Positions 13,827 to 64,000 of a DNA stretch of 64,000 bases are shown here, one piece after another. The translations under genes were made by a program, and so were the position numbers. Where the stretch lies: positions 2,022,312-2,086,311 of the forward strand of contig NC_087084.1 in NCBI RefSeq assembly GCF_026151205.1, given 5' to 3'. The DNA is from Bolinopsis microptera. Lineage: Eukaryota; Ctenophora; Tentaculata; Lobata; Bolinopsidae. Numbering within the stretch: position 1 is the first letter of the stretch; each line of letters opens with the position of its first letter. Under the pieces are notes generated by a model that was not told the DNA's origin, ran no database searches, and worked only from the letters and a program-made list of their open reading frames with translations.

Positions 13827-13827
13827 C

Positions 13828-14239
13828 CACTAACTAAACCCAATTGTGTCCCCGTGTCTCCACTAACTAAACCCAATTGTGTCCCCGTGTCTCCACTAAC
13901 TAAACCCAATTGTGTTTCCGTGTCTCCACTAACTAAACCCAATTGTGTCCCCGTGTCACCACTAGCTAAACCCAATTGTGTCCCCGTGTCTCCAATAACT
14001 AAACCCAATTGTGTCCCCGTGTCTCCACTAACTAAACCCAATTGTGTCCCCGTGTCTCCACTAACTAAACCCAATTGTGTCCCCGTGTCTCCACTAACTA
14101 AACCCAATTGTGTCCCCGTGTCTCCACTAACTAAACCCAATTGTGTCCCCGTGTCTCCACTAACTAAACCCAATTGTGTCCCCGTGTCTCCACTAACTAA
14201 ACCCAATTGTGTCCCCGTGTCTCCACTAACTAAACCTCC
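13828..14239. repeat. 33-bp minisatellite (copy 2)
   Basis: About 12.4 units, with the same variant units (TTTCCG, CACCACTAGC, CCAATAAC) in the same order as copy 3. The junction with the preceding DNA is CCTCATGGT / CCACTAAC. Confidence 0.9.
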
Positions 14240-14245
14240 CCACAG

Positions 14246-16917
14246 CAATAATAAACCAGCTGATGACAGTGGGAGGGGACATAATGTCCTTGGTTCCTGT
14301 GGGAAAGAGTGGGAAACACATGGGAACTGCTGTAGACTACGCTATGCATGTGTTCTATCAGGTTAGTGCTGAATAAGCTTCAGTTCCTTTTAAAAGCTGA
14401 GTGTGAGCTAGCTTTGTTGAAACTTATGATAATGAAATAAACTTTAAATATACATATATATCCAGGCTTTTATCTGATACAATCACTCACTAAATAATTG
14501 CGGATCCCTGATAACCCGATCCCACTACACAGGACAAACGAATAGCGCACACTCCATTCCACGCCCTGACCCCGGCCGAGAGGGAGATATACATCGCCAG
14601 AACCAACCTCCTCAACCACATGTCTACACTTCTCAGGGACGAGGTCCAGAAACGGGAACAGACCATGAGAGAAGAAGCAGGTACTTGATAAAATCAATCA
14701 GTCCATTAATTAGTTCACTAATTAGTTCACTAATTAGTTCACTAATTTGTTCACTAGTCGATATATATTTCCTTGAGAAGGGTGGTGTTCAAGCCAAATT
14801 TTAAGAATTAATCTGTTGGATGAGAAATAGTATCCTTTAATAATGTTAACACACCATAAGAGTGGAAACCTGCTAAGGTTGAATAGCGAAGACGAGAAGT
14901 ATTATTTGTTTGTTGCTATCCATGTTATTTATTTTGCTTAACCCTAATAATATAATTGATGTTGTAGATACTGGCACTCTTGCCAATCATCTTTAAAACT
15001 GGGGAGAGGGGGGTGCAAACTGTTGCCTGGTGTCGTTAGTAATCAGATGCCCCCACTTCAGGGCCCCATTCTTGGTCCGTTCAATTTACCATTATCAATG
15101 ATGTTCTACATGGCTTATCTGATGTTTCGAATGCTCTGAGATTTATCCATCAATACCTTAAAAGTTAAAATATCTCAAAATTATTTTTCTCCGTACCCAT
15201 TTACTAAAAAATCTCTGGAAGTCTGGACAGTCGTTTTACACTAAGAGTTAACGCAGGTCCAGAACAAGATGAAAGTGCTGGAGCAGTGGCGTAACGTTGC
15301 CTGTTGGCGCCCCCCTGCCGAAAAAGGCGCCCCCCTGTTGGCGCCCCCTCCCCTTTTGGTGCCCCTCCCTAAAATTGAACAAATTAGGTGATTTAAAGAA
15401 AACACCCTCAAAGTCCAACAGACGCGCTAGTCGTGCAAAAATTGGCGCTAATGGTGAAAAAGTGGGTGCTAATGGTGAAAAAGTGGGCGCTGATGGTGAA
15501 AAACTGCGCTCTAGTGGTGAAAAATTGGGCGCTAATGGTGTAAAAATGGGTGCTAGTGGTGAAAAAGTGGGCGCTGATGGTGTAAAAATGGGCGCTAATG
15601 GTGAAAAAATGGGCGCTGATGGTGTAAAAATGGGCGCTAATGGTGAAAAAGTGGGCGCTGATGCTGTAAAAATGGGCGCTAATGGTGTAAAAATGGGTGC
15701 TGATGGTGAAAAACAGGGTAAGAGAGCTTGTACCGATGGTCCAACAAGGAAAGACGATGAGCTTCACGCTAGCGAAGCCTAATCTCCATCTTCCTTCTAT
15801 TGATCTGTGCTTTCTTTGTGCTATCATCATCTTTTCACACGAAGCATGTTTATCACATACCATATCCTGAAATACATCTAATAGAAATATCTACATCTAA
15901 AGTGTCCACAGTTTTTAACCATTCGTGTGTATGTGTGTGTAATTCTTTATTATACTCTGCATACATTTTTCATTCACCTTTAATTTATATGTTAGGCGCC
16001 CAAGTAGTCGCGAGCAGGGTTTGCTATTTGTTTACCGTGTTCGAGATTCCATCATAACCTGGCGGCAATATTTCATGACCGATTTAAAACTTTTCCATGC
16101 AAAATAATCCTACAATCTGTCACTTCTCAGAGTTGATGGAAGCTGAGGGAAAGAAAGGACACAAACCAAAGATGCTGTTCAAGTATTGTTACGAGTGTGG
16201 TCGCAGCACTGGTTAGCCGATATTTTCATTGATCAGTTGATATTAATTAGTTATTTGGTTGATACAAAATCATTAATAATTGATATATACCTAGCGAAAT
16301 TAGGATTTTACAACTTTCTACCTGCTACCTTGATAAGTTGATAGTACCCCAAAAATTCAATATCCATCCTAATGGTGATATATTTCAGGCGTAAAACTCT
16401 CTCCCTGTACGAGATGTTTCACTGTTTCCTTCTGTTCTCAACGGTGTAAACTAAAAGCCTGGACCAGCCGCCACAGGAAGGAATGTACTAAATTAGAGAA
16501 CAAACAGAAGGAAAAGAAGGAGAGGGGACCTTCTGTTTCTGTTTCTCCACCCCCTGTTAAAGTAGTGAAAAAGGAGGAGTCTGCCTCAAAATCAGGTCAG
16601 TTTTTTAGATTTATTAACTTTAACTTTAACTTTAGGCGCTAATTTAGGATGTTTCAGCAAACTTTCTCCGGATACAATAATATTGGGTACAATAACAGTT
16701 ACCTGTTTATCTATTTCATCATGAGTCTCTACTTTATTTTCAAGCACTCCTTTCTATTTCAGACACGGGCAAAAAAGGCAAAACACGCTCAGTCTCCAAA
16801 GATATATTCGGAAAGAAGAACAAACGGGACAACAGACGAGGCAAGGACGACGACCAGCCGGAGATGATAACCCACGCTCTTCCTAGGATCGTTAACCTGC
16901 AGCACAGTAACATCTAG
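14246..16917 (+). pseudogene. Duplicated 3' end of ANKMY1 (unit 2), disrupted
   Basis: Copies of exons 11-16 lie at 14246-14361, 14533-14680, 15257-15717, 16131-16211, 16389-16595 and 16763-16917, all with conserved GT-AG borders. There is no upstream ankyrin exon or start codon in the unit. The exon 13 copy contains a 116-bp insertion (15286-15401) that brings an in-frame TAA at 15292 and shifts the frame. The MYND cysteines remain intact. It could act as alternative 3' exons, but as a stand-alone gene it is broken. Confidence 0.8.
15286..15401. other. 116-bp insertion in the exon 13 copy (unit 2)
   Basis: Compared with unit 1, extra sequence begins GTGGCGTAACG and includes several GGCGCCCCCC-like blocks. 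It starts after GGAGCA and ends before ACACCCTC. Its length is not a multiple of three and it contains an in-frame TAA. Its origin is not recognised; no clear target duplication is visible. Confidence 0.8.
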
Positions 16918-20650: not shown

Positions 20651-21128
20651 AGCCCCTGTGTCATGTATATATCATGTGCAATTCTGTAAAGTGTAAACCG
20701 GCTGCTATTCATTTTCTGTAACTCAATACATTGTTTTGACGATGTAACTGCTATCATCTTCATCATCGCTCTCAGCGAGTATAACCTCAGTCTTGCAGCA
20801 GAGGACAATAAGACAGTAAGTTTATAACATCTCAAATTTTATATATAGCGTTGTTTGATGGAGGCATGGTTTTGGGACTGTATAGTCAGTATATAGTGTT
20901 AGCTGTGCGGGGTACCTTGTGTTCTGGTGTTTTGTAGGACTAGCTGAGATCACACTGTTTGCTACTAACTTTCTGGATCTCAGCGAGATAGACCCTTATA
21001 TTAGTTTTGGTAGAGTTGGTGGGAACTTGTGTCAGAATATATTAGGAGGGTGCGATGTAGCGGGGACTCACTGTACCCAGGGAATAGCTTGTACTTTTAT
21101 CCTGACCCTACTGATACCCCTCATGGTC

Positions 21129-21540
21129 CACTAACTAAACCCAATTGTGTCCCCGTGTCTCCACTAACTAAACCCAATTGTGTCCCCGTGTCTCCACTAA
21201 CTAAACCCAATTGTGTTTCCGTGTCTCCACTAACTAAACCCAATTGTGTCCCCGTGTCACCACTAGCTAAACCCAATTGTGTCCCCGTGTCTCCAATAAC
21301 TAAACCCAATTGTGTCCCCGTGTCTCCACTAACTAAACCCAATTGTGTCCCCGTGTCTCCACTAACTAAACCCAATTGTGTCCCCGTGTCTCCACTAACT
21401 AAACCCAATTGTGTCCCCGTGTCTCCACTAACTAAACCCAATTGTGTCCCCGTGTCTCCACTAACTAAACCCAATTGTGTCCCCGTGTCTCCACTAACTA
21501 AACCCAATTGTGTCCCCGTGTCTCCACTAACTAAACCTCC
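21129..21540. repeat. 33-bp minisatellite (copy 3)
   Basis: This array is identical in unit number and variant order to copy 2, as expected from a very recent duplication or from an assembly duplication. Confidence 0.9.
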
Positions 21541-21546
21541 CCACAG

Positions 21547-24218
21547 CAATAATAAACCAGCTGATGACAGTGGGAGGGGACATAATGTCCTTGGTTCCTG
21601 TGGGAAAGAGTGGGAAACACATGGGAACTGCTGTAGACTACGCTATGCATGTGTTCTATCAGGTTAGTGCTGAATAAGCTTCAGTTCCTTTTAAAAGCTG
21701 AGTGTGAGCTAGCTTTGTTGAAACTTATGATAATGAAATAAACTTTAAATATACATATATATCCAGGCTTTTATCTGATACAATCACTCACTAAATAATT
21801 GCGGATCCCTGATAACCCGATCCCACTACACAGGACAAACGAATAGCGCACACTCCATTCCACGCCCTGACCCCGGCCGAGAGGGAGATATACATCGCCA
21901 GAACCAACCTCCTCAACCACATGTCTACACTTCTCAGGGACGAGGTCCAGAAACGGGAACAGACCATGAGAGAAGAAGCAGGTACTTGATAAAATCAATC
22001 AGTCCATTAATTAGTTCACTAATTAGTTCACTAATTAGTTCACTAATTTGTTCACTAGTCGATATATATTTCCTTGAGAAGGGTGGTGTTCAAGCCAAAT
22101 TTTAAGAATTAATCTGTTGGATGAGAAATAGTATCCTTTAATAATGTTAACACACCATAAGAGTGGAAACCTGCTAAGGTTGAATAGCGAAGACGAGAAG
22201 TATTATTTGTTTGTTGCTATCCATGTTATTTATTTTGCTTAACCCTAATAATATAATTGATGTTGTAGATACTGGCACTCTTGCCAATCATCTTTAAAAC
22301 TGGGGAGAGGGGGGTGCAAACTGTTGCCTGGTGTCGTTAGTAATCAGATGCCCCCACTTCAGGGCCCCATTCTTGGTCCGTTCAATTTACCATTATCAAT
22401 GATGTTCTACATGGCTTATCTGATGTTTCGAATGCTCTGAGATTTATCCATCAATACCTTAAAAGTTAAAATATCTCAAAATTATTTTTCTCCGTACCCA
22501 TTTACTAAAAAATCTCTGGAAGTCTGGACAGTCGTTTTACACTAAGAGTTAACGCAGGTCCAGAACAAGATGAAAGTGCTGGAGCAGTGGCGTAACGTTG
22601 CCTGTTGGCGCCCCCCTGCCGAAAAAGGCGCCCCCCTGTTGGCGCCCCCTCCCCTTTTGGTGCCCCTCCCTAAAATTGAACAAATTAGGTGATTTAAAGA
22701 AAACACCCTCAAAGTCCAACAGACGCGCTAGTCGTGCAAAAATTGGCGCTAATGGTGAAAAAGTGGGTGCTAATGGTGAAAAAGTGGGCGCTGATGGTGA
22801 AAAACTGCGCTCTAGTGGTGAAAAATTGGGCGCTAATGGTGTAAAAATGGGTGCTAGTGGTGAAAAAGTGGGCGCTGATGGTGTAAAAATGGGCGCTAAT
22901 GGTGAAAAAATGGGCGCTGATGGTGTAAAAATGGGCGCTAATGGTGAAAAAGTGGGCGCTGATGCTGTAAAAATGGGCGCTAATGGTGTAAAAATGGGTG
23001 CTGATGGTGAAAAACAGGGTAAGAGAGCTTGTACCGATGGTCCAACAAGGAAAGACGATGAGCTTCACGCTAGCGAAGCCTAATCTCCATCTTCCTTCTA
23101 TTGATCTGTGCTTTCTTTGTGCTATCATCATCTTTTCACACGAAGCATGTTTATCACATACCATATCCTGAAATACATCTAATAGAAATATCTACATCTA
23201 AAGTGTCCACAGTTTTTAACCATTCGTGTGTATGTGTGTGTAATTCTTTATTATACTCTGCATACATTTTTCATTCACCTTTAATTTATATGTTAGGCGC
23301 CCAAGTAGTCGCGAGCAGGGTTTGCTATTTGTTTACCGTGTTCGAGATTCCATCATAACCTGGCGGCAATATTTCATGACCGATTTAAAACTTTTCCATG
23401 CAAAATAATCCTACAATCTGTCACTTCTCAGAGTTGATGGAAGCTGAGGGAAAGAAAGGACACAAACCAAAGATGCTGTTCAAGTATTGTTACGAGTGTG
23501 GTCGCAGCACTGGTTAGCCGATATTTTCATTGATCAGTTGATATTAATTAGTTATTTGGTTGATACAAAATCATTAATAATTGATATATACCTAGCGAAA
23601 TTAGGATTTTACAACTTTCTACCTGCTACCTTGATAAGTTGATAGTACCCCAAAAATTCAATATCCATCCTAATGGTGATATATTTCAGGCGTAAAACTT
23701 TCTCCCTGTACGAGATGTTTCACTGTTTCCTTCTGTTCTCAACGGTGTAAACTAAAAGCCTGGACCAGCCGCCACAGGAAGGAATGTACTAAATTAGAGA
23801 ACAAACAGAAGGAAAAGAAGGAGAGGGGACCTTCTGTTTCTGTTTCTCCACCCCCTGTTAAAGTAGTGAAAAAGGAGGAGTCTGCCTCAAAATCAGGTCA
23901 GTTTTTTAGATTTATTAACTTTAACTTTAACTTTAGGCGCTAATTTAGGATGTTTCAGCAAACTTTCTCCGGATACAATAATATTGGGTACAATAACAGT
24001 TACCTGTTTATCTATTTCATCATGAGTCTCTACTTTATTTTCAAGCACTCCTTTCTATTTCAGACACGGGCAAAAAAGGCAAAACACGCTCAGTCTCCAA
24101 AGATATATTCGGAAAGAAGAACAAACGGGACAACAGACGAGGCAAGGACGACGACCAGCCGGAGATGATAACCCACGCTCTTCCTAGGATCGTTAACCTG
24201 CAGCACAGTAACATCTAG
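21547..24218 (+). pseudogene. Duplicated 3' end of ANKMY1 (unit 3), disrupted
   Basis: Copies of exons 11-16 lie at 21547-21662, 21834-21981, 22558-23018, 23432-23512, 23690-23896 and 24064-24218. It shares with unit 2 the 116-bp insertion (22587-22702) and its stop. The only coding difference from unit 2 that I noted is a synonymous base early in exon 15. This is the 3'-most MYND-coding copy. Confidence 0.8.
22587..22702. other. 116-bp insertion in the exon 13 copy (unit 3)
   Basis: Same sequence and position as in unit 2, so the insertion preceded the split of units 2 and 3 but is absent from unit 1. Confidence 0.8.
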
Positions 24219-37761: not shown

Positions 37762-40700
37762 ATGCCTATACAAATGGAAGGTAAAAAAGTAAAGAAGACT
37801 CTACCCCTACAGAGAAGCTCCAAACCTCCCACTATTGATCTGTCACGTGATAAAGTGTTAGATGATCCTTTCCCTCTCGTCTTCGAGAAATCGGTGGGTG
37901 GTGTTTTGCTCGCTATAAAACTGACAAATTTGTATCGAAACTTTCAAGCTGATGATGGTTAGCTAGTTGCTAATTTACGCTTTATTTGAAAGCCAAGTGA
38001 CACAACAAAATCCTTTAATTTATACATCACGTGAAAAAAACGAAACTGTATAATTCACACGTCACGTAATAATTACACAGGTCCTGAAATCAGAGCCACC
38101 AGGGCTGACAGAACCGCGGGGGGCACCCAACAACGATATATCGTACATGGCCCAGGACTACGCCAAACAGATACTTGAGATTATGAACGATTTGAGGAAG
38201 ATAAAGAAGTTTTGCAATGTGGTGCTTATTGTTAATGATGCTGTGAGTGCGGATATTTTATATTAAATTTATAATCACATTTTTTAAACATTTTTGCCCC
38301 AGGAATTACAATTGTGTGTCCCAGCTGGTGTGCCCCAAGTGTGCCTAGCTAGATTAGCAACTGGCGGAGCTTTACTATTTACAATTACAGGAGATACTGG
38401 CCCACAAGTCAGTGCTAGCTGCTAGCTCCACCTTCTTTCGTGCTATGTTCGAGAGTAAACAAGCGGAGAATCAGAGTGCATCTGTTACTATATCCGTGAG
38501 TAAAATATTAAATTAATTTATTAATTTATTTTAATATTTTATTATTAAAATATTAAATATTTTATAATTTTAAAATGAGGCAACGGGTTGTGCTATTTTA
38601 TTTTGTGCGAATCGTAGAAAACAGTGAACTTAAGCGATCAGAGTACTGCAAGTTACAACTATCGATTTCATTAAATAACCTAAATTAAATTAAATAAACT
38701 TAAATTGAATAAACTTAAATTAAATAAACTTAAATTAAATAAACTAAATTAAGAATTGAGTTTATTTTAAACCAAGTGATTCATACCTATACACGTTGTT
38801 TGTATACTTACGTGGTTTGTATACTTACACTTTACAATTTACAGATCGAATGGTGCACAATGAGCGCATTGTCCATATCTATCGTTTTTAGTTAGGACCT
38901 GCTAAACCGTGTGGTTTATATACTTACACTTTACAATTTACAGAGCGAATGGTGCACAATGAGCGCATTGTCCATATCTATCGTTTTTAGTTAGGACCTG
39001 CTAAACCATGTGGTTTATATACTTACACTTTACAATTTACAGATCGAATGGTGCACAATGAGCGCATTGTCCATATCTATCGTTTTTAGTTAGGACCTGC
39101 TAAACCGTGTGGTTTATATACTTACACTTTACAATTTACAGATCGAATGGTGCACAATGAGCGCATTGTCCATATCTATCGTTTTTAGTTAGGACCTGCT
39201 AAACCATGTGGTTTATATACTTATTACTTACACTTTACAATTTTGGTGCCCTGATAGTTTTCTTTAACTACTTTGGGTTTGTTTTAAAGTTCGATAATAA
39301 TTACAATTTACAGGGTATATCCGAGACAATAGTGGTGCAGCTGATAGAGTTTGCATACACTGGTAATATTGCAGTGGGTAAAGAAAACGTGAAGGACCTT
39401 CTGAGCGCAGCCAGTAAGTGTACAATAAAACTGTTTTTTTAAATCATAGCACGCATACCTACCAAATTTAAGGTATCCTCTTATTATTGTTAAACTTTCC
39501 TCAAATATTTCCACCAGTACAGATTCTGATTAGCTGTCCCTTTGACATATTATAGTATTATATGAGACAGGAAAAATGCCATCTTACTAGGAAGCTTACT
39601 AGGACGTGAGGAGAGTTAGAACTCCTCGGACTACATTAAATCAATTCCTTCTGTAACGTACTGAAGAAATGTAATTACGAATTAATAAATCATAAAATAT
39701 GTTATCTGAACATGTTATCCACTCCCAGGTTCACTAAAGTTTCTTCCTGTCCGGGATGCTTGCTGTGATTTCCTTCACCGTCACTTTAGTGCCAGCAACA
39801 CTGTGGGGATACGCTACTTTGCGTTGCTGGAGGTAATTGGAACAGTTTGTTAAGAGTGATTTTAGTTTGAATATTCGGTATCATGATATTATCTGGTTGT
39901 AATATAACATCTCAATCGTGAATACTGTTTTCATAGTAACCACAGTAACCACAGTAACCACAGTAACCACAGTAACCCCAGTAACTACAATAGCCATAGT
40001 AACAACAGTAACCATAGTAACCATAGTAACCACAGTAACTACAGTAACTGCAGTAACCACAATAACCACGGTAACCACGGTAACCACAATAACCACAATA
40101 ACAACAATAACAACAATAACAACAATAACAACAATAACAACAATAACAACAATAACAACAATAACAACAATAACAACAATAACAACAATAACAACAATAA
40201 CAACAATAACAACAATAACAACAGCAATAATCACAATAACCACAGTAACCACAGTAACCACAGTAACCACAGTAACCCCAGTAACTACAATAGCCATAGT
40301 AACAACAATAACCACAATAACAACAGTAACCACAGTAACCACGGTAACCACAATAACAACAATAACCACAGTAACCACGGTAACCACAATAACAACAATA
40401 ACAACAATAACAACAATAACAACAATAACAGCAATAACCACAGTAACCACTAATCCTCCTCCGCAGGACTGTTCAGACTTGGTCCAGAAATCGGAGGACT
40501 TTATTGCCCGTAACTTTACAGACGTAGCGAAAAGTGAGGAGTTCTTCATGTTGTCGTACAACCAAGTGTGTGAGATAATAAACCTTCAGAAGTACCCTTT
40601 CAGAAACGAACAAGTCAGTGAACTACATAATATTATATATAATATATTATATATATATATATATTAATATATTATATAATATATTATATAGTAATCGCAA

Positions 40701-40843
40701 GGTTGCTGGATCGATACCCGCCATCGGTAAAACCAACCCTGATAATTTGAGCCATACTGATGAGTCCTAATAGGACGAAACACTGTGTCTATGGATAATA
40801 TGTTATATATAATATATTATATTATATATACATACTTTATTAT

Positions 40844-40878
<35 letters not shown>

Positions 40879-43800
40879 GAGGCTGGGCCTGGTTGGCCCA
40901 CGAGAGGATAGCATATGAATGCTTTGCCTACCTCTGGGGTATGGCAGTCCTGTGGGAGGATGCCAGTGGAATCAAGATGTGTAATCAAGGATGATGGTAA
41001 GTGTTGTGGGGTGTGTCATAGATAAACGCTTAAGTGGTGGTTGAGTGTGGAAGAGAGAGGCGAAATAAGACGGCGTTAAAGTAGTCGCTATGTTACACCT
41101 GTCTGGTCCAACTCCTCTGGCACCACTAAGCGTTTAGTGTGGTTTGTAAAGTTGACAATGGTGGAGATGTGTTGGTTGTCGAATATGTCATTGACAGAGA
41201 GGTAGTAGTCCCGGAAATATTGACCTCTTATTTGGGCAATAGCCGGGCACTGTCCGAGAAAGTGTGAGACAGTCTCCTCTTCGTCGCCGCATTTAGGACA
41301 AGCACTTGTGTCTGATTTGCGAATGGTGTGTAGATGTTTGTTGAGGCCACAATGTCCCGTGATGAGGTGCACTGCAGTTCTATAATTTTGTCTGTTGTTA
41401 CTGAGTGTAGTGTTGAGATTTTTGATGATGTTGATGTTTTTATGTCCAAGTGTCAGTTTAGTGTGTCTGGGACCATCAGTAATCCATGATTCTTGATTAA
41501 GTTTTGTGACTTTGTCGTTGATCAGGCGTTTGATGTAAGATTGTGGAATTGGGCAATTCAAAGTGGATTCACTGGTTGTACCATTTTTGGCCAGCTCGTC
41601 TGCTTTTTCATTACCCCACAATCCAATGTGTGCAGCTATCCATCTGATCTCTAAGGTGTTAGTGGATCCGAGTGTATTGAGGGTGTCGTAACAGTCTCTA
41701 GTAGTCCTACTCCTCGTTGAAGGTGAGGATATGGCTTGAATAGAGGAGAGACTGTCTGACCATATGATGATGTGTGTGTTTGTATAAGTTGATAGATATT
41801 TACAAGCTTCGATGATGGCAGTGAGTTCTGTTTGATAAACGGTGCAATAATCGGGAAGCTTGAATGATCTTTCATCTAGTGTAGTGTTGTTGTTGTCTGT
41901 GGTGATAATATAACCAGCCCCGCTACCTGAGTCTGTGCGTGACCCGTCTGTGTAGCAGGTGATGGTTTCACTGGGGATGTTGTCGATGGTGTTTTGGAGT
42001 GAGCCTCTATATCCAATGTTGTCAGCTCCAGGAGTGGTGACCGTGAAGCGTCGTTCAAGCATCATGGTTGGTATAGATAGGTCTCTCTCTGCTTTGGGTG
42101 GTATGTTGAGATCTACCATGAATTGTTTGTTGATAGTGGTGTGAGTTGTGATGGTACCTTTTCTGGGGGCGATAGTTTCGAGGGTTAGGCTTCCATAAGC
42201 TTGAAGCCTGGCTGTGCCCTTTGCTTCACCTCTCAGGAAAAGTATGATATCTGGAGTGTTAGTGAGGTGGTTCAGTGCGATGAAGGGAGTACTAGGCATG
42301 GCACCAGACATCATTCTCAATGCCAATGCCTGAACTCGTTTGAACTTCCTCGCGTTGGTGTCTGTTTGGGTTGCTCTAATCCATATACTACAGCAGTATG
42401 ATAGAATAGGTCTGATGACAGCGGTGTACATCCATTTGCATGTTTTAGGGCTCATACCCCAAGTGGGGCCGACAGCTCTTCTACATTGCATAAGGGATGC
42501 CGTAGCTTTTTTGGTGGTATTGGTGATATGTTCATTGAAATTGAGCTTGCTGTCGAGGGTCACTCCTAGGAATTTGGCAGATTTGGATAGACCTATAGTG
42601 GTGTTACCCACCACCACAGGTCTTAGTGTCCATTTCTTATTCCAGGTAAACATGACTATTTGTGTTTTGAGTGCGCTTATGGATAGATCTTTGGTTTGGC
42701 ACCATTTTTCTATTGTGTTGATGGTTTTGCGTGTTCTGTTCCAGATGATGTCTAAATCATTCCCCTCCGCTAGAGAGAGCAGATCGTCTGCAAAAGCTTG
42801 CAGATAACCTGGTATGTCTCTTGCGGTGTAGGCCAGGAGATCATCGACTACCAGGTTCCAGAGGAAAGGGGAAAGGATGCCACCTTGAGGGCACCCTCTC
42901 CGGATCCGAACCCTTGTCGACTTATCCTTATGATTTAATGTGATGAATCTGTTAGTTACCATGTTGATAATCCATTGTGCTGTGGCCAGATCCACTTTCG
43001 TGGTCTTGATAGCGTCAGAAATAGCCTTGAAAGAGACATTATCAAAAGCTCCCTCTATATCTAGAAAGACGCCTAGGACATATCCCTTCTTAGCTATCCT
43101 GCGCTCGATGGTGTGAGTAACTTTATGAAGGGCTGCTTCGGTTGAACATCCTTTCTTAAAGCCAAATTGTCGTTTGTTGATGTCTTTAGCGATATTAAGG
43201 TCGTGTTGCATATGCCACAGTATCACCTTCTCCTGTAGTTTTAACATCACTGGAGAAAGGGTGATAGTGCGAAATGACTTTGGTTGGTTGTAGTCAGTTT
43301 TTCCAGGCTTTGGGAGAAAGATTCCAAGGGATTCTTTCCACAAAGTTGGAATGTGTTGGGTTTCATGATTTTTTGTCATAATGGTTCTGGTGATGTCTTT
43401 GATGTGTGTCCAAGCTTTCTGTATGATGATAGGTTTGAGGGTGTCGGGTCCAGCAGCTTTCAACGGATCGAAGGATTTAAGAGCCTCCTCGATTCTGTCT
43501 GGGCTGTAGATGGTATTGAGTAAGGTGGTGGTGATTGGTAGAGGACCAGGTGGAGGCACTGGCGGATCAGTGACACTATCCTTGAAGTGGGTTCGTGTCA
43601 TGACCTCCAATGTCTCCTCTGCATTTTTGGTGATGTCTCCGTTTGGTTTGTAAACGGCTTCTAGTGTATGTTTGTTGTCGTTACAGGATTTCAGAATCTT
43701 ATTCATCCTTCCGGATTCCTTAACAGACTCTGTTTCCTGACAAAAAGTTCTCCAGGCATTACGCTGGGAGTTGGTTATAAGTCTGTTGTATTGTTTGTTG

Positions 43801-46800
43801 CTCTCTCTAAGAGCGAGCCACAGGGCATCAGTCTTCTTTTTGCGGGCAGTAATCAGTTTTTGTCTTATTCCCCTCTGTGCTTCCTCTACTTCTTGAGTTA
43901 GCCAGGGGGGTTTGCGGACGGAACTTGAGATGTAAGTAATGGGGCATGCCTCCTCGAAGGCTTCCTTTAGTGCAGTATTGATTATGTCTATTTTGTGATC
44001 AATTTCAGTCGTAGTGTTGATTTGTGTGTTGTTAAGGTTGGGGTTATTCGATAGGATCTCATCAAATCTGTCCAGTCAGTGTTTTTGACTAGTCGGATCT
44101 GTTTGGGTTCCTTCTTTGGCCCTGTAGTTATATCGAACATAATATAGCGATGGTCAGAGTTGGAGTAAAGGTCACTAACATGCCAGTTACTAATGAGACC
44201 TCCTCCCAACTGGTTTGTTATTGTGAGATCGATAATTGAGTTGTGGCCTCGAGAGTTGAGGAAGGTTGGGGATGATCCTTTGTTGGCACATGACAGCCCT
44301 AGGGAGGAGAGAAAGTCAAGAAGCTCCTCTCCCCTTTTATTGCATGCCTTGTTCCCCCAAAGGGTGTGGTGGGAATTGGTGTCCGACCCTATAATGAGCG
44401 GGATGTTGTTATCATTTGCGTATTTTGCTAGAGGTGATGTTTCTTGTGGCGGTACCGGCCCATTTATATCCATGTATGAAGCTGCCAGAATGAGTTCTGT
44501 CGAGCTGAGTTGGATTTTAATGGCCACTTGATCGGGTGTTGTGAATTGTGTAAGTTCCCAACATTTTACTGTCAGGTTTTTGTGCAGTACAATAGCGGCA
44601 CGGGGTCTTTTATCCCCGACCTTGTAGTAATATTGGGTGAGATCCTTATTGATGGGTGGTATTAGGTTTTTGTTATTAGAGTACGGTTCTGTTGCAAGAA
44701 TGATTGGATTTCTCCGGCCGTGAGTGTTGATAAGGAGGGTTTTCCATGCATTGAACTTGCGTTTGAGATTAATTTGGGTGACAGAGTAAGTTTCAGACTG
44801 CTTATTGCGTGCTGCAATAGTAGTTTTTAACTTTTTTTGGCGTCTCTTCTTTTTTGTGCTAGTTTGAGCGTCATTGAGCGGAGTGGAAGCCGTCCCTCCC
44901 CCTAGACAGGTATTATGACCTATCATTGCCGGTGGGGCGCTGAGGAGTTGGACAGGGTCGGGTAGCAGCAGCTGGCCCTCCAGAAGGTACGCATGGTCCC
45001 TTCCAGACAAACAGCCCCCGCCAGACCTTCCCTGAACATGGCTCCCACAGTCCGCTCAATAGACGTTTGTGTGTGAAATTGTGTTTGTTGTTATCTTTTG
45101 TTTGTGACCATATGTTCTCACGTGGGTGCGCGCACCCGCGCGAAGATATGATTTTTTTAGCTTTTAACACAATAATGTCGTATGTCGGTTGGACCATTGA
45201 GACTTGCCGAGAGTCAAAAGTGTCGGTTGAAAGTAGTTGTTGGTCTGATCGCAATGCCAACTGTCGATTCAAAGTCCCCATCCGGCCCGACTGCAAACAA
45301 CTTTACTTGCTTTAGCTGGTCGTTATGGATAGTGACCGTCCCTCCAGTTGGCACCACTGTTGGTAGTAAAGGTTGGTTTTTGTGTTGTTACAGTATATTA
45401 CTTTATAGGGTTCGTGGACGGTGCACAAAGTGCATGAGTCAGACCCAAGAGTCCGTGCACATACATTCGTGTTTGCCGAAGCACACTCTATCCCACGATC
45501 TATAAAGCAAATGGTTGATCAGTGAGGGTGTATCGTGAGTTTTAACACTTTCTGCGAATCGTAGAAAGATGCTGAGAAATACTACGACGACAGTGTTGAA
45601 ATGCCGCCCAATAAAACAGGGAAAATGGGTGCTAATGATCGCATTAAGGCCCGACCTGAAGCGCACACCTAAACTTCAAAAACCCTATAGCTCAATGTGA
45701 ATGAAAGCTGTGAGTGCTCAGGGAGGAAGGATCAGGTGAGTTAAATAGCCAAAAGAAGTGCACGTGCGACTTATGTCCAGTGATGCCCAGCTGGACAGTA
45801 CGGCTTAGTTTCGGCAGGTCGAGTGAAGCCGAGTAAGCCCCCTTACCACGTCAAGGTCACTTAACCGACTCCAGGCTGCAGTTCCAATCAATCCAAGAAT
45901 GAAAGACACGAACAAGAAGTGGGTTGAAAGGAATTACAGTCAGATAAATCAGAGTAAGTGGGCGGAGTCTTCACGAATGCTATGGTGCTCAGGACTGACT
46001 CCGCCGCCGTACTTATAATCCCAGCAATTCTAAAGCGTCCAGGAGGCCCCAGACGAGAGGCGGGAGCCCAAACTCCCCGTGCTAGCCCCGAGAAACGGGT
46101 CCAAGGCCCGAGAGTTTGACAAGAGCCAGGATCGCAATGCTAACTGTCGATTCAAAGTTCCCATCCGTCCCGACTGCAAACAACTTTACTTGCTTAAGCT
46201 GGTCGGTATGAATAGTAACCGTCCCTCCAGCCAGCACCACTCACCCATCCCCGCCGCACCCCCGTGCCAACCCCCAGATCTCAGACCATACCACGAGGAG
46301 CACGAACCCACACCAATCCCGCCCAGGACCCACCCAGCCGCTCGAATTACCGGGAAGCTGCCTGGCTAATGCTCTGGACCAGAACAAAAGGGGGATGTTG
46401 GCTCACGTGCACAAGAATTCAATATATAGATAAGATATACCATATCACGTGTTCAATGTTAATGTAGCACACGGAAATGAGTGGTTGGAATACATTTCAC
46501 AAAACTAACTGTTTCCTTATGGGCTAAATCCCTATTATATTTCTATTTCGTAAATTTTATGACTTTTCGTTAGGGAATCGTTCCGCAATACCAGAGTTAA
46601 GAAGTGGAAACTAGATTTTGAAATCGTTAGTTCTTGAAAGTTTCGGTCTTATTAGTGATATAATGAAAAAGATCCATCAGAAACATGGACCTGGCTTCCA
46701 GTAAATAGTTGATTATTTGTCCAGCATGTCTTAACATGACAATAGGAAACGTGAGTTGTCTACCAAACATACGTGGTTTCCTCCAGGCGAACGTGATTCC

Positions 46801-49800
46801 CTGATCATCAATCAAGCATCTAGAATTAGAACTTACAATTAGCCTTAAATACAAGTAAATTATGAAGCAAAGTATATTGGATTAGTTGGTCTATTGAATT
46901 TAAACCACAATATCATTAAAATTGAAACGTACGGTCATTAAGATAGAATCATAAAAGGTTTTAAATTTGAATAATTAGTGTAGTGCCACGGATAATTCCA
47001 GACGAACCATGCAAATCTTGTGTGGGCAAATGAGCGATTACAGGCTACAGAGGGTTCCGGTAAAGACTATCTCTCCGCTCGTACTCGCAAACTTTATGAA
47101 AGATTGTTTCTTAGAGTTAGGGGGTCTCTTTCTCAACCTATTGAAGACTATCTATTTGATCTTATTCGGGAAATTCATAGAAGATCGTTTCTTGGAATAA
47201 GATTGTCTCGTTCTCAACCATTACCAATTGAAAGACCAGATTTTACCATCCAGAAAACTCAAATGTAATGGATAACACAACTGCTTAGTGCTTAGTTGGG
47301 TATTGTCAGAGTATCCCCCCTGTACATCTCATAATATTGAACTCCTTGATCCTGTGGCTGTGTTATATAACGTGAAAACTCTTCACAGACTCTTCACGAT
47401 CTCTTCACAGACTATTCACAGACTCTTCAAAGACTAGCCTGTTCACAGCCTCTCAAGATGCACCTTACCACTCCGCTCCTTCCCCTGCTGTTAACTGAAC
47501 AGAATTCAATAAAACCTGCCCTTACAGTTAACCGCAATAACACTGCAGATCAGTGCATAGGACTCCTTCTTACAGGAATGCTATTGGTTGCAGTTCTGGG
47601 AAACATGGCTGCTCTCTCCTACTTCTGGCCCATCCGACGCAAATCTATCACTTCAAACTCTACATTCTGATCGTATTCGTGGATATTTCAACTGGACTGT
47701 CAACAATTCCCGTGATAGCATCCCTCCTCAACGACCGAGAACCCATGATGTTTAGTGGCTCCACTCTCTGTGCCATCCACATCTCAGCTGCCAACTTTTT
47801 GATAAAATTCTCCATGTTTCTGGTTGCTTTACTGAGTGTGACCAGAGCTGTTGCCATTGCAAGCCCACACAACCTGCAGGGATTCACCACCTTTGCTGTG
47901 TCTTTAGTGGTTGTTGGTTATGGTTTCCTACTCCTATTCACCGATGTGAGTTACTTGGCTTTTGGGTGGATTCAGCCTAAGTATATAGTGATGATTGCGG
48001 CTTGTGCAGCCACTAAAGGCGACCAAGAAAATTTCTTGGCTCTTACACTTTATCGTGTTGCCATAGAGATTGAGATACTCCTACCAATACTTATTGTCTT
48101 CATCACTTTCACTGTCTCCTTAATTGCGCTAAAAAGGAACAGGAACCGTCTGAACACATCCAACAACAATATTGATCATATACAGAGAAGATTCCGTCAA
48201 GTGTCCATCACCATCACCCTCTTCGCAGCCATATTCCTGCTTTGCAACATTCCTGTATTCCTCTACTACACCCTGCATTTGCTAGCAAGGTATTTTCCTG
48301 ATACTGCAAGCAAACTAGTAGCTATAATCCATGAAAAGCTAGCTTGGTACGGAGATCTGATGCTTGTCTACTTCCCTGTGGTCCTCAATGCTGCTATCAA
48401 CCCATGTCTGTACCTACTCAGGATGCCTGTTTACTATGCTAAATTCATCCATGTTTCTTATGGGGTCTCTAGGAAAGCCAGCACGGTGATTACTTATCTT
48501 GCTGGCTTGCAGGGTGGTAGAGGTTCTCTTTCTGTGACTGGAGACTCTGAGGTCGTTAATCAGGGCTATGACGTCATCAACAGGAGCCATGTTGAGGTGG
48601 ATCCTCCTCTGGAGGTCGGGGGAGAAGAGGCGAATGAAGCTATTTGCTTACAAAGACTGTCTACTAAATTAAAGTATATTGAGGCGAACTCTGTTGAGTC
48701 GAACTCTATTGAGTCGTACTCTGTTGGGTTGAACTCTGTTGAGTCGAACTCTGTTGGGTCGAACTCTGTTGGGTTGAACTCTGTTGAGTCGAACTCTGTT
48801 GGGTTGAACTCTGTTGGGTTGAACTCGTTGAGTCGAACTCTGTTGGGTTGAACTCTGTTGGGTTGAACTTTGTTGGGTTGAACTCTGTTGAGTCTAATTC
48901 TGTTGAGTCGAACTCTGTTGGGTCGAAATCTGTTGGGTTGAACTCTGTTCTTTCAAGATTCAAAGGATTCTGTGAAGGGAAATGTGTGAATTTCTCTTCT
49001 TAAAATCATTTGCTTAAAGTTGAAAACGAGTCAGAATCTGTTAAGTTAAACTCTGATGACTCAAATTCTATCGTGATCAGTATAATTTGCTGGAAACGGA
49101 AAAACATGTTGATCGAAATTTTATGCTACACATATCAACCTCTGCTTGTATTTACATATCATTTATATTTTATTTCTGTGTAAGACGTTCACGGTTCATA
49201 TATCGACTCAGTGCTTTTTGCTCGTCGATTTGATTTTAATATATGTTTTTATGTGTACTAATTGGTTCACAAGTTATCAATATTATGGCAATTTTGCACC
49301 GTTTTCATTGTTTTTCGAGCGCAATAATTGGATTGCAATCGAGGATGAGAAAGTTAAATGTTACCTACCAATGTCATCTATGTTGAGATTCGTTAAGCTT
49401 TAACAGGGCCATCATTTAAAATGCCCTCGGTCGCCGATGCAATTCAGATGGTAAGGCATTGCATTCCACGGGATATGACTGGAAATGAATTATCATACAG
49501 TGACTGGTTTGCTGCTGAGCTGTGTCTGCATACAGATGAAATGACTGCAAGGTTTCAAAAACATTGCCTGGAGACAAACTGCACGTTAATGTCGTTGCTG
49601 GTATGGTGATGGAGAATCGTCCACATATGAAGTAGAATAAACTGATCCCTGCGACGCTGTAGAGACATCAGAGATAGCCGTTGAAGAAGGTCCCAATAAT
49701 GAAGATCACGTATTCCAGTTATCCGCGCGGTGAAAGCTTTCTGTACGCTTTCAAGCTCCTAGATATCACTTATCTTGGAGGGGTGCCAAAGCGGGCAACA

Positions 49801-52800
49801 ATGATCCAGCAGACTACGAACCATCGACTTGTAAAGTGTGATAATCATGACTAGTGATCGCATGATTATTGATTATGTATCCTTGGGCGAAACTGTCGTT
49901 TTGAGAATCTGACATGATGAATCAGATCACGTCACTGATTGGGAACTGTTAATGGCCTGTTAAGGTGTGGAAAATAGGCGCAACTGTCGGTAGGCCGATT
50001 TTGTTCAATAATCCAACTGGAGCAATGAGTTAATTTAATTGATTTAAAGTGAAAATTAAATAAAACTACAACTTAATCGGGCTCGATCTTCATCTTGCTC
50101 AAATTTGCTCCATTGCTCAATTGATAACTTCTTAAGAGTTACTATTGACTACCATATATTGACTTTAATTTTATTAATTTGATTAATTTTCAGGTTGTGG
50201 CTATTGCCTTGTTTTGTTGGATACATCATGATCTAGACGCTAGAAAACACTTCTTCAAAGATCTGTTTAAACTGGTACGTCTGAAATATTCTTCTTTTTA
50301 ATACGTTATTTAATACTGTTCAATTATGTTAACATATTTCTTACATATTTAACATATTTCTTTATGACAAGGATTAATGACCATACTGCCAACTTACTAT
50401 AACTGCGTTTTACTCTGCTACTGAATAGTTTAACAAGAATTCAAATTGTTTACAATTTATCTTTAACGATTCCACTATGTATTTCTACAGATAAAGCTGG
50501 ACATGTTGCCCGCCCCCTTCATAATGACAAGTTTAACCCACAACGTGATGGTTAACGACTGCCCAGAGACGAAGGAAGCGGTTCTTTTAACGGTTGCTAA
50601 ACTCAAACTTCTCTCAGAAGATGTCTCAAAGGTACTTTATATAATTATATAAAGGACTAGCTTCAGAACATTCCCTAAGTTGGATTTTCGTTTTGTTTTT
50701 CAATCCAATCGATTACCCAAGCTAATTAGGAAGGTTGGTTCATATCTCTTATCTCTTATCCCTTATCTCTTATCTCTTATCTCTTATCTCTTATCTCTTA
50801 TCTCTTATCTCTTATCTCTTATCTCTTATCTCTTATCTCTTATCCCTTATCTCTTATCTCTTATCTCTTATCTCTTATCTCTTATCTCTTATCTCTCATC
50901 TCAAAACATAACAGGTAACACTAGACAGCGTACTGGGGACAGAACCCACAATAATCCAGCCAGTAGCTGTTCTACCTAAACGAAGGAACTGCAGTCCGCC
51001 CACTAGGAAGCGGAACAACAGTCACATTTCATCACCCAGAGCTCCCCCAAAAATAACTCTCGATAATGGTAACTACAATGTACATATTATTAGTGAATAA
51101 CTATTGTTTTTGAAGCTTTCTTGGAATTTTTTGGAATCTTTATCACGTTGTGTTTATTATCCATGAATAATGGACATTCCGCATCCTTTCTTTGGTCTGA
51201 GAATGGACTCAATTTTGTACATAATACATTCATTCCGCTACGCACTCGGATTTAACCAAAATTGAACAAATCTCTGTCTAGTGATGGTTGCCGATCTAGT
51301 TGTTTTGATAGATCAAGCAGGTACAAGGTTATCCAATATCCATTATAACTTAACCATATAACAAGTGAAAGGCTTAGTTGAGGTTCACAAACTTCAGATT
51401 GTGCATTGGTGACTTAAACTAGTTTTATAACTAAAGTAACTAACTAAAGTAACATCCACACCGTTTCAGGATCCGCCTTTAAACGGAAAACACCCAGTAA
51501 AATCCCAGTAACAGTTGGTGAAGTAACCAGTGCAGTGCATACCTCCGACTCTCACAGCTCCAGAGATCACCTCAGGTCTTGTTCCTATATCTAGATATTG
51601 AATTGGTGTTAAATTTTATGGAGTTCGTTTTGGAATTTCGAGTTTTTTAAATTTTCACTCATTAACACTTTGCTACCATCCTTGTATAGTCTATACGGTA
51701 ACGTTAGTGCTCCCTCTGACAAATTAATGTTTAATTCCTGTTTAATTCCTATCAGGACACTGCGAGATAACGGGGGGACAAAACGAGATCATCTGTCAGT
51801 AAGGGATCACGTGACCAAGAGGGATCACCTGACGGGGGATGTTGATCAGAAGAGACAGGGAGAGTTTGTTAGGGGTTGTGGTAACGCTATGTTCGTTGTT
51901 GGTAGGTTTTCAGTGAACTTACTTTTCTAATAAACTAATTAATTTTCCTGTGCTATCCCCTCAGATCTAGGATCGTCTTCTAAGATCGTCTTCTAAACTA
52001 TTGTATCCCTCGAAAACACATATTTAATATTTGATCACTAAATTCTCATCTCAACTAAAACCTCACGTATTTGCACAGGGGGCGCGTGTAACGTTAACAT
52101 GACAGATGCTATAAACAAAGTAGAGTACTACAACCCCACGCTGGACAAGTGGTACGAGGCAGGTCCTCTGAAGAAGAGTAGAAGTCTGGTGGGAGTTACT
52201 GTTCTTAGGGGGACACTCTACGCTGTGAGTATATTAAAGTAACTTTGATTGATTTGGACACGAAGGGAAACACACAAATTTGGCTTGGAAACTTCGTTTA
52301 ATACATCGCTAGAGCCTACAAAAAAGAAATAAATTAGTCAGATAAAATCAATCATAATACTCAGTCTACGCTGTGAGTTTTAAACTAATTACAACACTAC
52401 AAATCTATTACATTTATTATAGTATATATATAGTATATTAAAGTAACTTTTTTTTAAATCAAGACACTTATTTTACTTCGGTGTATTCCAACAGCCACAT
52501 TGTTACACAAGTGCAACCAGCCAATTATAACAGGAAGCCGAAGGACTTATTTGGCCAGTGACGGTTAAGGTAGTGTGTACCATACTTTCTTCGCCCGAGA
52601 CTTTGCTGCAATGTGCAGCTCCTCATTTAACCCTTATTTTTAACCAACTGTGCTACCTGGCCGTGATATTAGTATATGATATACGAGTATCTTAGTTGTG
52701 GAACACAACAACAAAATTCAGAATAATCTTAAGGGTAGGGACCCAGATGTCGTTTCTAACCCAAATAAACTTTAAGGAGGCTTTTATTAGTAACTTTGAT

Positions 52801-60636: not shown

Positions 60637-63600
60637 GGGATTACACAGGATTTACACAGGATTACACAGGATTAAAATTAAATTATAGATCCATTATCAT
60701 GGACCGTCATAATTGTTTACAGAAGTTAATGAAAACAATCATCTTTGCTTGAAGTCAGGGCCAGGGTTATCCTTGAGTCTTAATTATGACTAATTCGCGA
60801 GGTTCTCACCAAATTGATAGTAAAATTGTTTAAGTTTCGTGCATTTGAATTACGCTGACGCGTATCTTCGGTGAAGCTATTTCGCTCTTCGGAGCAGCGA
60901 AGGAAAAAAGTGCACACACAGTTGACAGCATAGGAGCGCCTTTCTTGAAATTGAGTATACTGTGGGGTGTTTGGTTGAATATCAAGTGAGCGGTGGCAGT
61001 GAATATGGAGGCTCTGGTGATTTTGAGGAATTACAGTTGAGTAAGGAGACAAAATTTCCATGAGATGATCTTTGAGATTTGTTTCATTGATATTGCTGGA
61101 GTCGGTGATTTCATTGCTTATTTCAATGATTGGCATTTGAGAAAGATTTTTGACTAATTTCGACCTCTGTTTTGAATACAAGTCACAAATGTAAAGAACA
61201 TGCGACTCGTCTTCGATGGTCTCAACGCCCATACTTGATTGGCACCAACCACATAGTCTTTGCTCACGGGGTGTGTTGGAGTATCTGCCTCTTTCAATAT
61301 GGAGATCATGTGCGCTGATTCTAAGTTTTGTGGTACTGTAACGACGAGAAAAGCCTTTGCATAAGTATAAGTAGGGCTCTCGGTTGAAGGTGTGTTTGAT
61401 TGAGTGATAGAATGAGAGTTTAGAAGAAGTAGATTTTTGATATTGCCAACATTTTTTGAATTGATTGGTTAGAGCTTCGATGATTTTAGGAATTCTATAC
61501 TTTTTGCTGCATAGTGGTTTGATGGATTGACTAAAATTTGACTGATTTATGAGGGAGTCTTTTAATAATTTGTGATCACTTACAGGGTTGGGCGCGGCTT
61601 TGTTAGCTGCATTTGTATTGAGAATTCGGTGCGCAGTTACGTGATCTAGTTTGTAAATTTCATCTAGTTCAAGGAGTGGTTTTATGTATCGATACCAAGG
61701 TAAGTTTAGTGATTTTTGTTCTTTTACGGCTGCAGTGACAAACGAATTCGACTTTGATTTTGTATTTAGCCTTTTGAAGTAATTTAACGTTAAGCGAATT
61801 GATTGATAAATCAGAGGAACTCTTCCTGTTTCTCCCCAAACACCTACATTTGATGCTTTACGATGGACTCCCAATGCCCATTTTAGGAATGAAATATGCA
61901 CTCTTTCTTGCAGAGAGGCGCTGATTTTTTTAAGTAAGTTAGTAGCGGTTGCTTCTGTCGAGTTAATCGTTTTGCAAAGAGATTTATTGATCGTACTAGT
62001 GGGTGTCCATATCGGAGCACCATATAATAGAATGGGCTTGATGAGAGAGTCGAACAGTGTAAGGAGTGCTTTAAAAGATAACTTTGAACGCATGACAACC
62101 CTTTTCAGGCCAAAAAATGCACGCATTGCTTTGGTTTTAAGGTTTTGTTGAGCGATCTGTACTTGACCCGATTGATGAAGTTCAAATCCAAGGTAACAAT
62201 AACTGTCAACAATTTCAAGATTAGATCCGTTGAGTGTAAATTTGATGTTTTGTATGTCCTGTTTTAACGTTTTCTTACCAAAGATGACTGCTTGAGTTTT
62301 GAGTTCATTGATTTCAATGCCCCACTCCTTACAAAAATTACCGAGAATATTAAGTTGCTTTTGAGTGGTTTCCTGGTCGAGTGAAAGGAGTATAAGGTCA
62401 TCCGCCCACAGTAGGTGGCTAACAGTCAAATTTGAAAGTACGGGGCAATTTGGAAAATCTAGGAGGCAGGACATATCACTGAGAAAAACTTTAAAAAGAT
62501 CAGGTGAGAGTGGGTGACCTTGTTCTGTACCTTTACGTATCTGGAAGCGTTTACTGAGGTGACCAGATAATTTTATGTAAGCGTACGAGTTTGAGTACAT
62601 ATTTTTGAGGACATTGTAGAAGTTTCCAGTTATGCCATTTTTTGCGAGTTTGAGGAAAAGGGCTTGACGGCAGACTGAGTCGAATGCTTTTTTAAAATCA
62701 ACAAATACTGCATATACAGGTTTCCCCAAAAGTTTATATTTTGAAGCTATAGTTTTCATGGTTAGTATGTGATCGTATGTTTGAGCTTTCTTTGTGAAGC
62801 CTAGTTGGTTAGGTGGATCAGGGCAGTTTTCAGAGCGGAAGCGAATGAGTCGTTCTAAGAGAATAGTTGAAAATAGTTTTCCTATGACACTGCTGACAGC
62901 AACTGCACGGTAGTTGTCAGGATCTGATTTATTACCCTTTTTATGAAGTGGAGATATAATGCTGACGTTCCAGGGATAAATTCCTTGTGAGAAGCAGGCG
63001 TTGAAGAGGTTCAACATAATCAATTTATGATTGGTGTCCAGAGATTTTATAATTTCGTTATTAATCATGTCGAGTGAGGAAGCTTTACCATTTTTTAGGG
63101 ATTTTATACTAGAGTCAAGTTCTGTTTTGGTGATTAAGGAGTTGAGTGACTCAGGATGAGTTGCACCTTGATTTATCAAGTCAGCTTGATCAATCATAGA
63201 AACTTTTTTATTTTCATTTATTGTTTTGTGGTTATCGGAATATAGGTTACCAAAAAAAGTCTCGAATCTATTCATATCATGACTGTCAAAATTTAAAGTT
63301 TCCTTTTTCTGATTTTTTAGTTTTTTGAAAGATTGCCAGTTGAGAATTTTCCCCCCCTCTATGTCCTCATTCATACGTGCGAAGAATTCGTTTTTGGCAG
63401 AGTTCTTCAAACGCTTATAGCTACCCTTGACAAGATAATAGTTTTCACGTATAAGGTTGTTTGACGGGAATTTTGAGGTTGCATCTGTAGCTTTACGAAA
63501 TTCTCTTTTACCTAATCTCGTTTTCCAGTTAAACCAAGGTTTGTTTGAGGTGTGAGATTTTTTGGGTGGTTTGGTTTGTTTGAAACACTTCGAGGCCATG

Positions 63601-63825
63601 TCGCGAAGGTGTTCTGAAAGTCGTTTGTTAATGTCTTTGAGTTCAGTTTCATAATTACGGTCATTGTCTGCTAAAATATTTTGATTGGTGAGTAAGTCGA
63701 TGTTCGATTGAAGTTCATGGATTAAGGTCAATGATAGATTTTCTGACTGAGCTTCGAAAAAGTCGTCTTTGTTCTCTTCGTTGATAATGTATCTGGTTGG
63801 CGCTGTCTGATAAGTGACCTGTAAT
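60637..63825 (-). mobile_element. 5'-truncated CR1/Jockey-like retrotransposon nested in the foldback element
   Basis: Comparison with the intact foldback copy (GTGTTCATT joined to GTGCAGGG near 29801) shows that 3189 bp have been inserted between 60636 and 63826. The 3' end on the minus strand carries AATCCTGTGT short tandem repeats instead of poly(A), as in CR1-like elements. No clear target duplication is visible, also common in that group. The endonuclease domain is missing. Confidence 0.8.
60780..63825 (-). CDS. Reverse transcriptase ORF, 5' partial
   Basis: Open over about 1015 codons to TAA at 60780. The frame also continues upstream through 62 bases of foldback arm to an ATG at 63887, so the first 21 or so residues from that ATG are not retrotransposon-derived. 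Counting from it, RT motifs are VDFKKAFDSV (about 396-405), EQGHPLSPDLF (about 455-465), LLWADDL (about 492-498), YLGF (about 565) and YGAPIW (about 622). A CX2C...HX4C zinc-knuckle-like motif (CGWC...HVLYIC) lies near residue 910. There is no RNase H and no endonuclease. The long undamaged frame suggests recent insertion, but the truncated copy should be unable to move by itself. Confidence 0.85.
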
Positions 63826-64000
63826 GTGCAGGGACGTTGCATAGACGTTGCATAGACGGTTCTTTTGTTGTTGCACGGACGTTGCATAGACGTTGCATAG
63901 ACTGTCCGGAGCTAAACGACCAACTTCCCTTAGTTGCTGTTCTCGTTCAGTTCTGTCCATATTTTATGATCAATGGTTTGGAGTGTCATGTTGTCCTCAA

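Follow-up and report, generated by a model that had tools for sequence, protein, structure and literature searches.

Non-LTR retrozymes have been described in metazoans (Cervera and de la Pena, 2020, PMC7229834), and Penelope-like elements are considered strong candidates for their mobilisers, based on the co-occurrence of the two and on their tandem habit (PMC7229834). According to a review of the same year, 2020, metazoan retrozymes seem to be promoterless, and their transcription is left to read-through (PMC7761336). Poseidon of Anolis is one of the Penelope-like elements that bear minimal type I hammerheads (PMC11167929). Many such elements have been reported to carry this minimal hammerhead within their pseudo-LTR, although its presence is not treated here as obligatory. 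The Anolis protein is reported to extend both strands, with a preference for AT-rich DNA and a start inside its own RNA (PMC11167929). In Schistosoma, the repeat SMalpha is SINE-like and contains a type I hammerhead (Ferbeyre, 1998, as cited in PMC8490949).

Then, which enzyme could move the metazoan retrozymes, and from which promoter could they be transcribed? Here, we follow up a hammerhead motif in a stretch of 64,000 nucleotides of the ctenophore Bolinopsis microptera, which is called the window throughout. The reading that we prefer, with a probability of about three in four, is that the motif forms the 3' end of a truncated non-LTR retrozyme copy, which would have arisen by a cycle involving an internal promoter, a circular RNA and a Penelope-like family of the same genome, termed PLE-D.

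The hammerhead motif

The sequence-only reading had claimed a complete type I hammerhead ribozyme and had proposed its check by a covariance model. When this check was run, Rfam RF00163 (Hammerhead_1) matched positions 40750-40796 of the forward strand over the full model (1-45), reaching 35.9 bits where the gathering threshold is 34, with an E-value of 2.6e-5 for the whole 64-kb window. The core bases named in that reading (CTGATGA, GAA, A15.1-U16.1 and C17) are all present according to both the pairs in the sequence and RF00163, the same pairs confirm the helix I of 5 bp and the helix III of 3 bp, and the hammerhead model places the predicted cut at the same position, after C40789 (Table 1). 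RF00163 is the only Rfam family that reaches its gathering threshold in the 64-kb window, and a relaxed structural scan of these 64 kb found no second hammerhead. For the isolated RNA, a competing fold is favoured by ViennaRNA (-9.4 vs. -6.8 kcal/mol for the hammerhead), the non-canonical core and the loop-loop contacts lying outside the model of this program. The window hammerhead is a genuine motif of the self-cleaving type, with cleavage predicted from its structure.

Across the genome, 69 matches to RF00163 were found, almost all of which have the sequence of the window motif. For type III hammerheads the genome search gave no match, and the control search likewise matched nowhere. A search for COX1 also had no hit; the assembly may lack the mitochondrion. 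One exact match to the core, CTGATGAGTCCTAATAGGACGAAAC, was seen among viral contigs, in a phage-like contig (IMGVR_UViG_3300008220_002440, L090:7214-7238) with other flanking helices; it is apparently a separate phage hammerhead, and the viral contigs were set aside.

The ribozyme is also under constraint. Counted over one full unit per array, mismatches to the consensus amount to 19/874 in the ribozyme vs. 333/4332 elsewhere in the repeat (Fisher P 4e-11, which is nominal, since related copies are not independent). In nine arrays that have diverged by more than 5%, a count from which two decayed arrays were left out, the corresponding values are 4/414 and 212/2052. All of the units counted were also found by the whole-unit search; therefore, the constraint is not solely a product of ribozyme-first sampling.

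The repeat element, its predicted promoter and its host intron

Inspection of 30 of the 69 matches placed the motif at the 3' end of a repeat unit, 277 bp (~278) long, that recurs head to tail, and a DNA search with this unit gave 78 matches in the genome. Both junctions are visible in 53 distinct insertions, among which a few may be segmental duplicates: 35 consist of a single unit and 18 of multiple units (two units in 13 cases, three to seven in the other five). The insertions are spread over all 13 large contigs, which hold about 97.5% of the 264.65 Mb of the assembly, with about 1-7 units each, and none of the 53 has an LTR or any terminal repeat other than the unit itself. At the 3' side, 48 of the 53 stop within consensus positions 272-277 (43 of them exactly at 277); the 5' start, by contrast, varies from consensus 1 to 245. 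The fixed 3' end sits 7-8 nt past the predicted cleavage site and is followed by (TA)n. Over 24 nt, the mean fraction of TA/AT steps is 0.64 in the 3' flank and 0.53 in the 5' flank, compared with 0.18 window-wide and 0.19 a few hundred bases off. A fixed 3' end combined with variable 5' truncation is, as judged from these junctions, a mark of target-primed reverse transcription. A cluster of 5' ends at 130-133, near the expected Pol III start, was set aside because the ends are ambiguous with TA flanks.

The circular fold of the unit RNA has an energy of -86.9 kcal/mol with 66% of the bases paired, vs. -66.3 +/- 5.7 kcal/mol for simple base shuffles, and the identities within and between arrays do not separate rolling-circle copying from homogenisation. 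Several insertions can share one (TA)n landing site, with CAACAGATTGTCGTGAAG and GACGCTTTTGCAGTC among the flanking words (the flanks of L002, L023, L026, L032, L052, L064 and others). More generally, many repeats seem to have collected in (TA)n tracts, often convergently, making these tracts hubs of insertion.

The copy in the window lies between two (TA)-rich tracts (Table 1) that have the stretch TATATAATATATTATAT in common. This stretch is a possible target duplication, one that is not provable within a microsatellite. Since the motif is the end of a truncated copy of a dispersed, tandem element, the ribozyme has not evolved for the intron in which it lies. The element in the window is almost certainly a copy of a metazoan-type retrozyme, and the insertion is probably dead. 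The sequence-only reading had named SINE-like elements, retrozymes and Penelope-like elements as possible relatives. The 277-bp repeat, its tandem units and the tRNA-type boxes of complete monomers bear out the kinship to retrozymes and, through the predicted promoter, to SINE-like elements; the Penelope-like option stands only in the altered role of a probable mobiliser. The Penelope-like families inspected have no detectable hammerhead.

Table 1. Coordinates of the ribozyme, the retrozyme copy and the host-gene exons in the window.
Feature	Position	Strand	Basis and remarks
BTB pieces	~38388-38492 and ~39320-39430	+	Pfam; upstream of the element
BACK-domain exon of the BTB-BACK-Kelch gene	~40455-40612	+	Pfam PF07707, E 1.8e-8; upstream
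(TA)-rich tract, 5' junction	40630-40689		Tandem Repeats Finder, junction reading
5'-truncated retrozyme copy, 108 bp	40690-40797	+	Element 171-278 of 278, 96% to consensus; C13:2063001-2063108
B-box-like GGATCGATACC, remnant of tRNA-like head	40708-40718	+	Consensus boxes and spacing; A box gone by truncation
Type I hammerhead ribozyme	40750-40796	+	Rfam RF00163, 35.9 bits, gathering score 34
Helix I, 5' strand CCATA	40752-40756	+	Sequence pairs; RNA CCAUA/UAUGG, 5 bp
Core CTGATGA (CUGAUGA)	40757-40763	+	Sequence, Rfam
Helix II and loop 2, GTCCT AAT AGGAC	40764-40776	+	Pairs 40764-40768/40772-40776, 5 bp, triloop
Core GAA	40777-40779	+	Sequence, Rfam
Helix III, ACA CTG TGT	40780-40788	+	Pairs 40780-40782/40786-40788, 3 bp including A15.1-U16.1, triloop
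C17, predicted cleavage after it	40789	+	Hammerhead-model position
Helix I, 3' strand TATGG	40790-40794	+	Sequence pairs
(TA)-rich tract, 3' junction	40797-40836		Sequence
Kelch-repeat exon, downstream	~52042-52239	+	Pfam PF01344, E 7e-6; assigned by order and strand

In the consensus of the unit, TGGCCCAGTGG agrees with the A box at 11/11 positions and GGATCAATACC with the B box at 10/11 (11/11 in some copies, e.g., L019), and the 43 nt between the boxes are as in tRNA genes. A comparable pair of A and B boxes was absent from both strands of the window and from 91 kb of sequence elsewhere in the genome. The Rfam tRNA model RF00005 aligns over its full length, weakly (15.8 bits, with the gathering threshold at 29; E 0.44 for 106 bases), and ARAGORN called no tRNA gene. 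The head of 82 bases matches retrozyme copies alone among the 40 scored, and an ordinary SINE with the same head was rejected on this ground. On the sense strand of the monomer consensus there is no run of four T. Judging from the boxes, the tRNA-type internal promoter of complete monomers is quite likely to be real, and Pol III would be the polymerase that uses it. The window copy starts 3' of the A box, retaining the B box, and would thus probably be unable to drive its own transcription.

The placement in an intron of a BTB-Kelch gene agrees with Pfam: BTB and BACK are found upstream and Kelch downstream, all on the forward strand, so that the motif lies in sense orientation within a large intron. 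The window copy could cut the BTB-BACK-Kelch intron.

Several other features were seen in the window. A LINE on the minus strand of the same intron (41088-45055), with reverse transcriptase and RNase H, adjoins the retrozyme copy, and its 30-base poly(A) appears as the T run at 40846-40875. In the same gene, a tandem array with a unit of 99 bp (4.3 copies, 38812-39239) lies just ahead of the second BTB exon, and a long open frame at 47541-48851 (+), within the BTB-BACK-Kelch span, resembles a rhodopsin-type receptor by eye and has the repetitive tail NSVGLNSVES. A second LINE-type reverse transcriptase ORF (1043 aa, Pfam RVT_1) is located at 60780-63911 (-). In addition, a block is present three times at spacings of about 7.3 kb (6670-8571, 13713-15890 and 21014-23191), each copy containing minisatellites in which both strands are open (KPNCVPVSPLT; GEKVGADGVKMGAN).

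Penelope-like families and the proposed cycle

A search for GIY-YIG brought up PLE-D, a Penelope-like family that is abundant in this genome. Its ORF of 1013 aa has a C-terminal GIY-YIG at residues 886-931 (E 4.4e-7) and reverse-transcriptase motifs that were read by eye, Pfam RVT_1 giving no score. PLE-D occurs in partial tandems; for example, in L091 a truncated copy is followed by a complete one, with a repeat of 883 bp (pseudo-LTR) at 99.9%. Its fixed 3' end, CAGCCATGAAAT or GTACAGCTACAAAAT, passes directly into (TA)n in 38/38 sampled copies, and truncated copies have (TA)n ahead of them. Landing-site words of 12 bases are common to 18/48 retrozyme and 8/38 PLE-D insertions; for family A, the sharing with retrozymes is 1/11 insertions. 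Among the score-selected matches listed, three retrozymes lie less than 1 kb from a PLE-D match where about 0.06 would be expected, a count that was calculated after the pattern had been noticed. In some cases, a retrozyme and the 3' end of a PLE-D copy face each other from the two sides of a single (TA)n tract, oppositely oriented, an arrangement that would be allowed by the both-strand extension, AT preference and internal start of the Anolis protein.

PLE-D itself has no hammerhead by an Rfam search up to E 5 or by the relaxed scan, and its 3' end has a weak resemblance to that of the retrozyme, with no clear sequence homology. Consequently, the link between the two rests on junctions, landing sites and proximity, and on balance these point to PLE-D as the mobiliser of the retrozyme.

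Three further Penelope-like families, A, B and C, have an N-terminal GIY-YIG by position and no hammerhead detected by Rfam or the relaxed scan. Family A (PLE-A), which serves as a control, has the fixed end CATAATATA with no (TA)n after it and a TA score of 0.22, and for families B and C the one copy scored of each has an intermediate TA score. The N-terminal GIY-YIG, the 3' ends lacking a (TA)n tract and the lack of a hammerhead led us to reject these families as partners. A Penelope fragment adjoining a retrozyme in L001 was judged to be a broken neighbour rather than a chimera. In family B, both copies of the pseudo-LTR contain a sub-threshold match to Twister-P5 in element sense (26.8 and 30.1 vs. 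37.6 bits), at L049:474-518 and 3789-3833 (+) and at L050:2281-2325 and 5599-5643 (-), these copies not being independent; if real, this would be a notable case of a Penelope-like element with a ribozyme from a different class.

The proposed cycle would begin with the tRNA-like internal Pol III promoter of a complete monomer, which would drive transcription through the tandem array. By analogy with published retrozymes, the RNA monomers may be circularised by tRNA ligase. A Penelope-like protein, for which PLE-D is the best candidate, would open a (TA)n tract, the target being the one observed at the junctions. Reverse transcription would then begin 7-8 nt past the cleavage site, on a circular or multimeric RNA reading GGAU-AAAUAU at this point, a stretch that could pair with the nicked (TA)n target. 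Copying round the circle or along the multimer with a random stop would yield arrays that share a fixed 3' end and are truncated to varying extents at the 5' side, and the window copy would be one such truncated product. In full, the proposal is that of a retrozyme that would carry a Pol III promoter of its own and be moved in trans by PLE-D, reverse transcription starting where the TA-rich joint of a circle made by the ribozyme would pair with a (TA)n target, and all this in a lineage often placed as sister to all other animals; we hold this full version to be somewhat less likely than not.

Could another retrotransposon using (TA)n, such as a LINE, move the retrozyme, with PLE-D merely using the same tracts? 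These (TA)n tracts have several other repeats at their edges and could serve several machineries as a common sink, a LINE with poly(A) adjoins the window copy, and PLE-D has neither a hammerhead nor more than a weak resemblance at its 3' end. However, that neighbouring LINE ends in poly(A) and the retrozyme does not, while PLE-D has the same type of junction in 38/38 sampled copies, landing sites in common with the retrozyme and three retrozymes within 1 kb among the matches listed, a pattern that PLE-A is without. Movement by such an element is therefore considered unlikely, and PLE-D is retained as the preferred mobiliser.

Tandem arrays of similar units, in which a unit is not clearly nearer to its array mates than to the best unit from outside, could also be satellite DNA grown by unequal crossing-over, with the hammerhead as a passenger and no circular RNA step. 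Dispersal over 13 large contigs in 1-7 units, the fixed 3' end with variable 5' truncation, the (TA)n targets and the ribozyme as the most conserved region all argue against satellite growth, which is thus very improbable. Still harder to sustain is a co-option of the ribozyme for regulating the BTB-BACK-Kelch gene from its intron: the sense orientation, the intact core and the 96% identity to the consensus would suit it, but the truncated copy, inserted in a microsatellite, looks recent and resembles dozens of others. As for a hammerhead-like sequence arisen by chance, the score exceeds the gathering threshold by a mere 1.9 bits; nevertheless, this origin is refuted by the 69 genomic matches, by the position of the motif inside a conserved element and by the constraint on the motif, the most conserved part of the repeat, and its probability is negligible. 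The truncated retrozyme copy accordingly remains our reading of the motif.

Comparison with known systems

The element belongs to an already known kind, the metazoan non-LTR retrozyme. What is new here is the ctenophore host, the A and B boxes in monomers, the junctions of a fixed 3' end with (TA)n and PLE-D as a partner candidate. A literature search for ctenophores and hammerhead ribozymes found no ctenophore retrozyme, which is not proof of absence, and the present host would extend retrozymes to a very early animal branch. If true, a tRNA-type promoter in each unit would explain how such elements get transcribed. As to the enzyme that moves metazoan retrozymes, a specific candidate family is available here, one that agrees with the retrozyme in end structure, target and landing sites, alongside a control family that does not match; the retrozyme and PLE-D, if this is true, would constitute a complete autonomous/non-autonomous pair for metazoan retrozymes.

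Like the metazoan non-LTR retrozymes, the element has a type I hammerhead in a repeat within the range of ~170-400 bp, occurs as monomers to multimers, is low in GC, has no LTR and no ORF, and is dispersed. Unlike the retrozymes of PMC7229834, it has A and B boxes in each complete monomer and a fixed 3' end on (TA)n, and its host phylum is Ctenophora, which the main text of that paper does not mention. With tRNA-derived SINEs it shares a tRNA-like internal promoter (predicted here), the non-autonomous state and possible 5' truncation, and it differs from them in the ribozyme, the tandem arrays and the (TA)n junction. By description, it is also like SMalpha, another SINE-like repeat with a type I hammerhead, in a host of a different phylum. 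SMalpha reportedly has a Pol III-type promoter. Poseidon resembles the present system in an internal start of reverse transcription (deduced here from the junctions), AT-rich targets and tandem or partial-tandem copies; however, the element here is non-coding, and PLE-D has no detectable hammerhead. Moreover, the Anolis element starts at a site that is not homologous to the cut DNA, whereas here the RNA at the putative start point is itself TA-rich.
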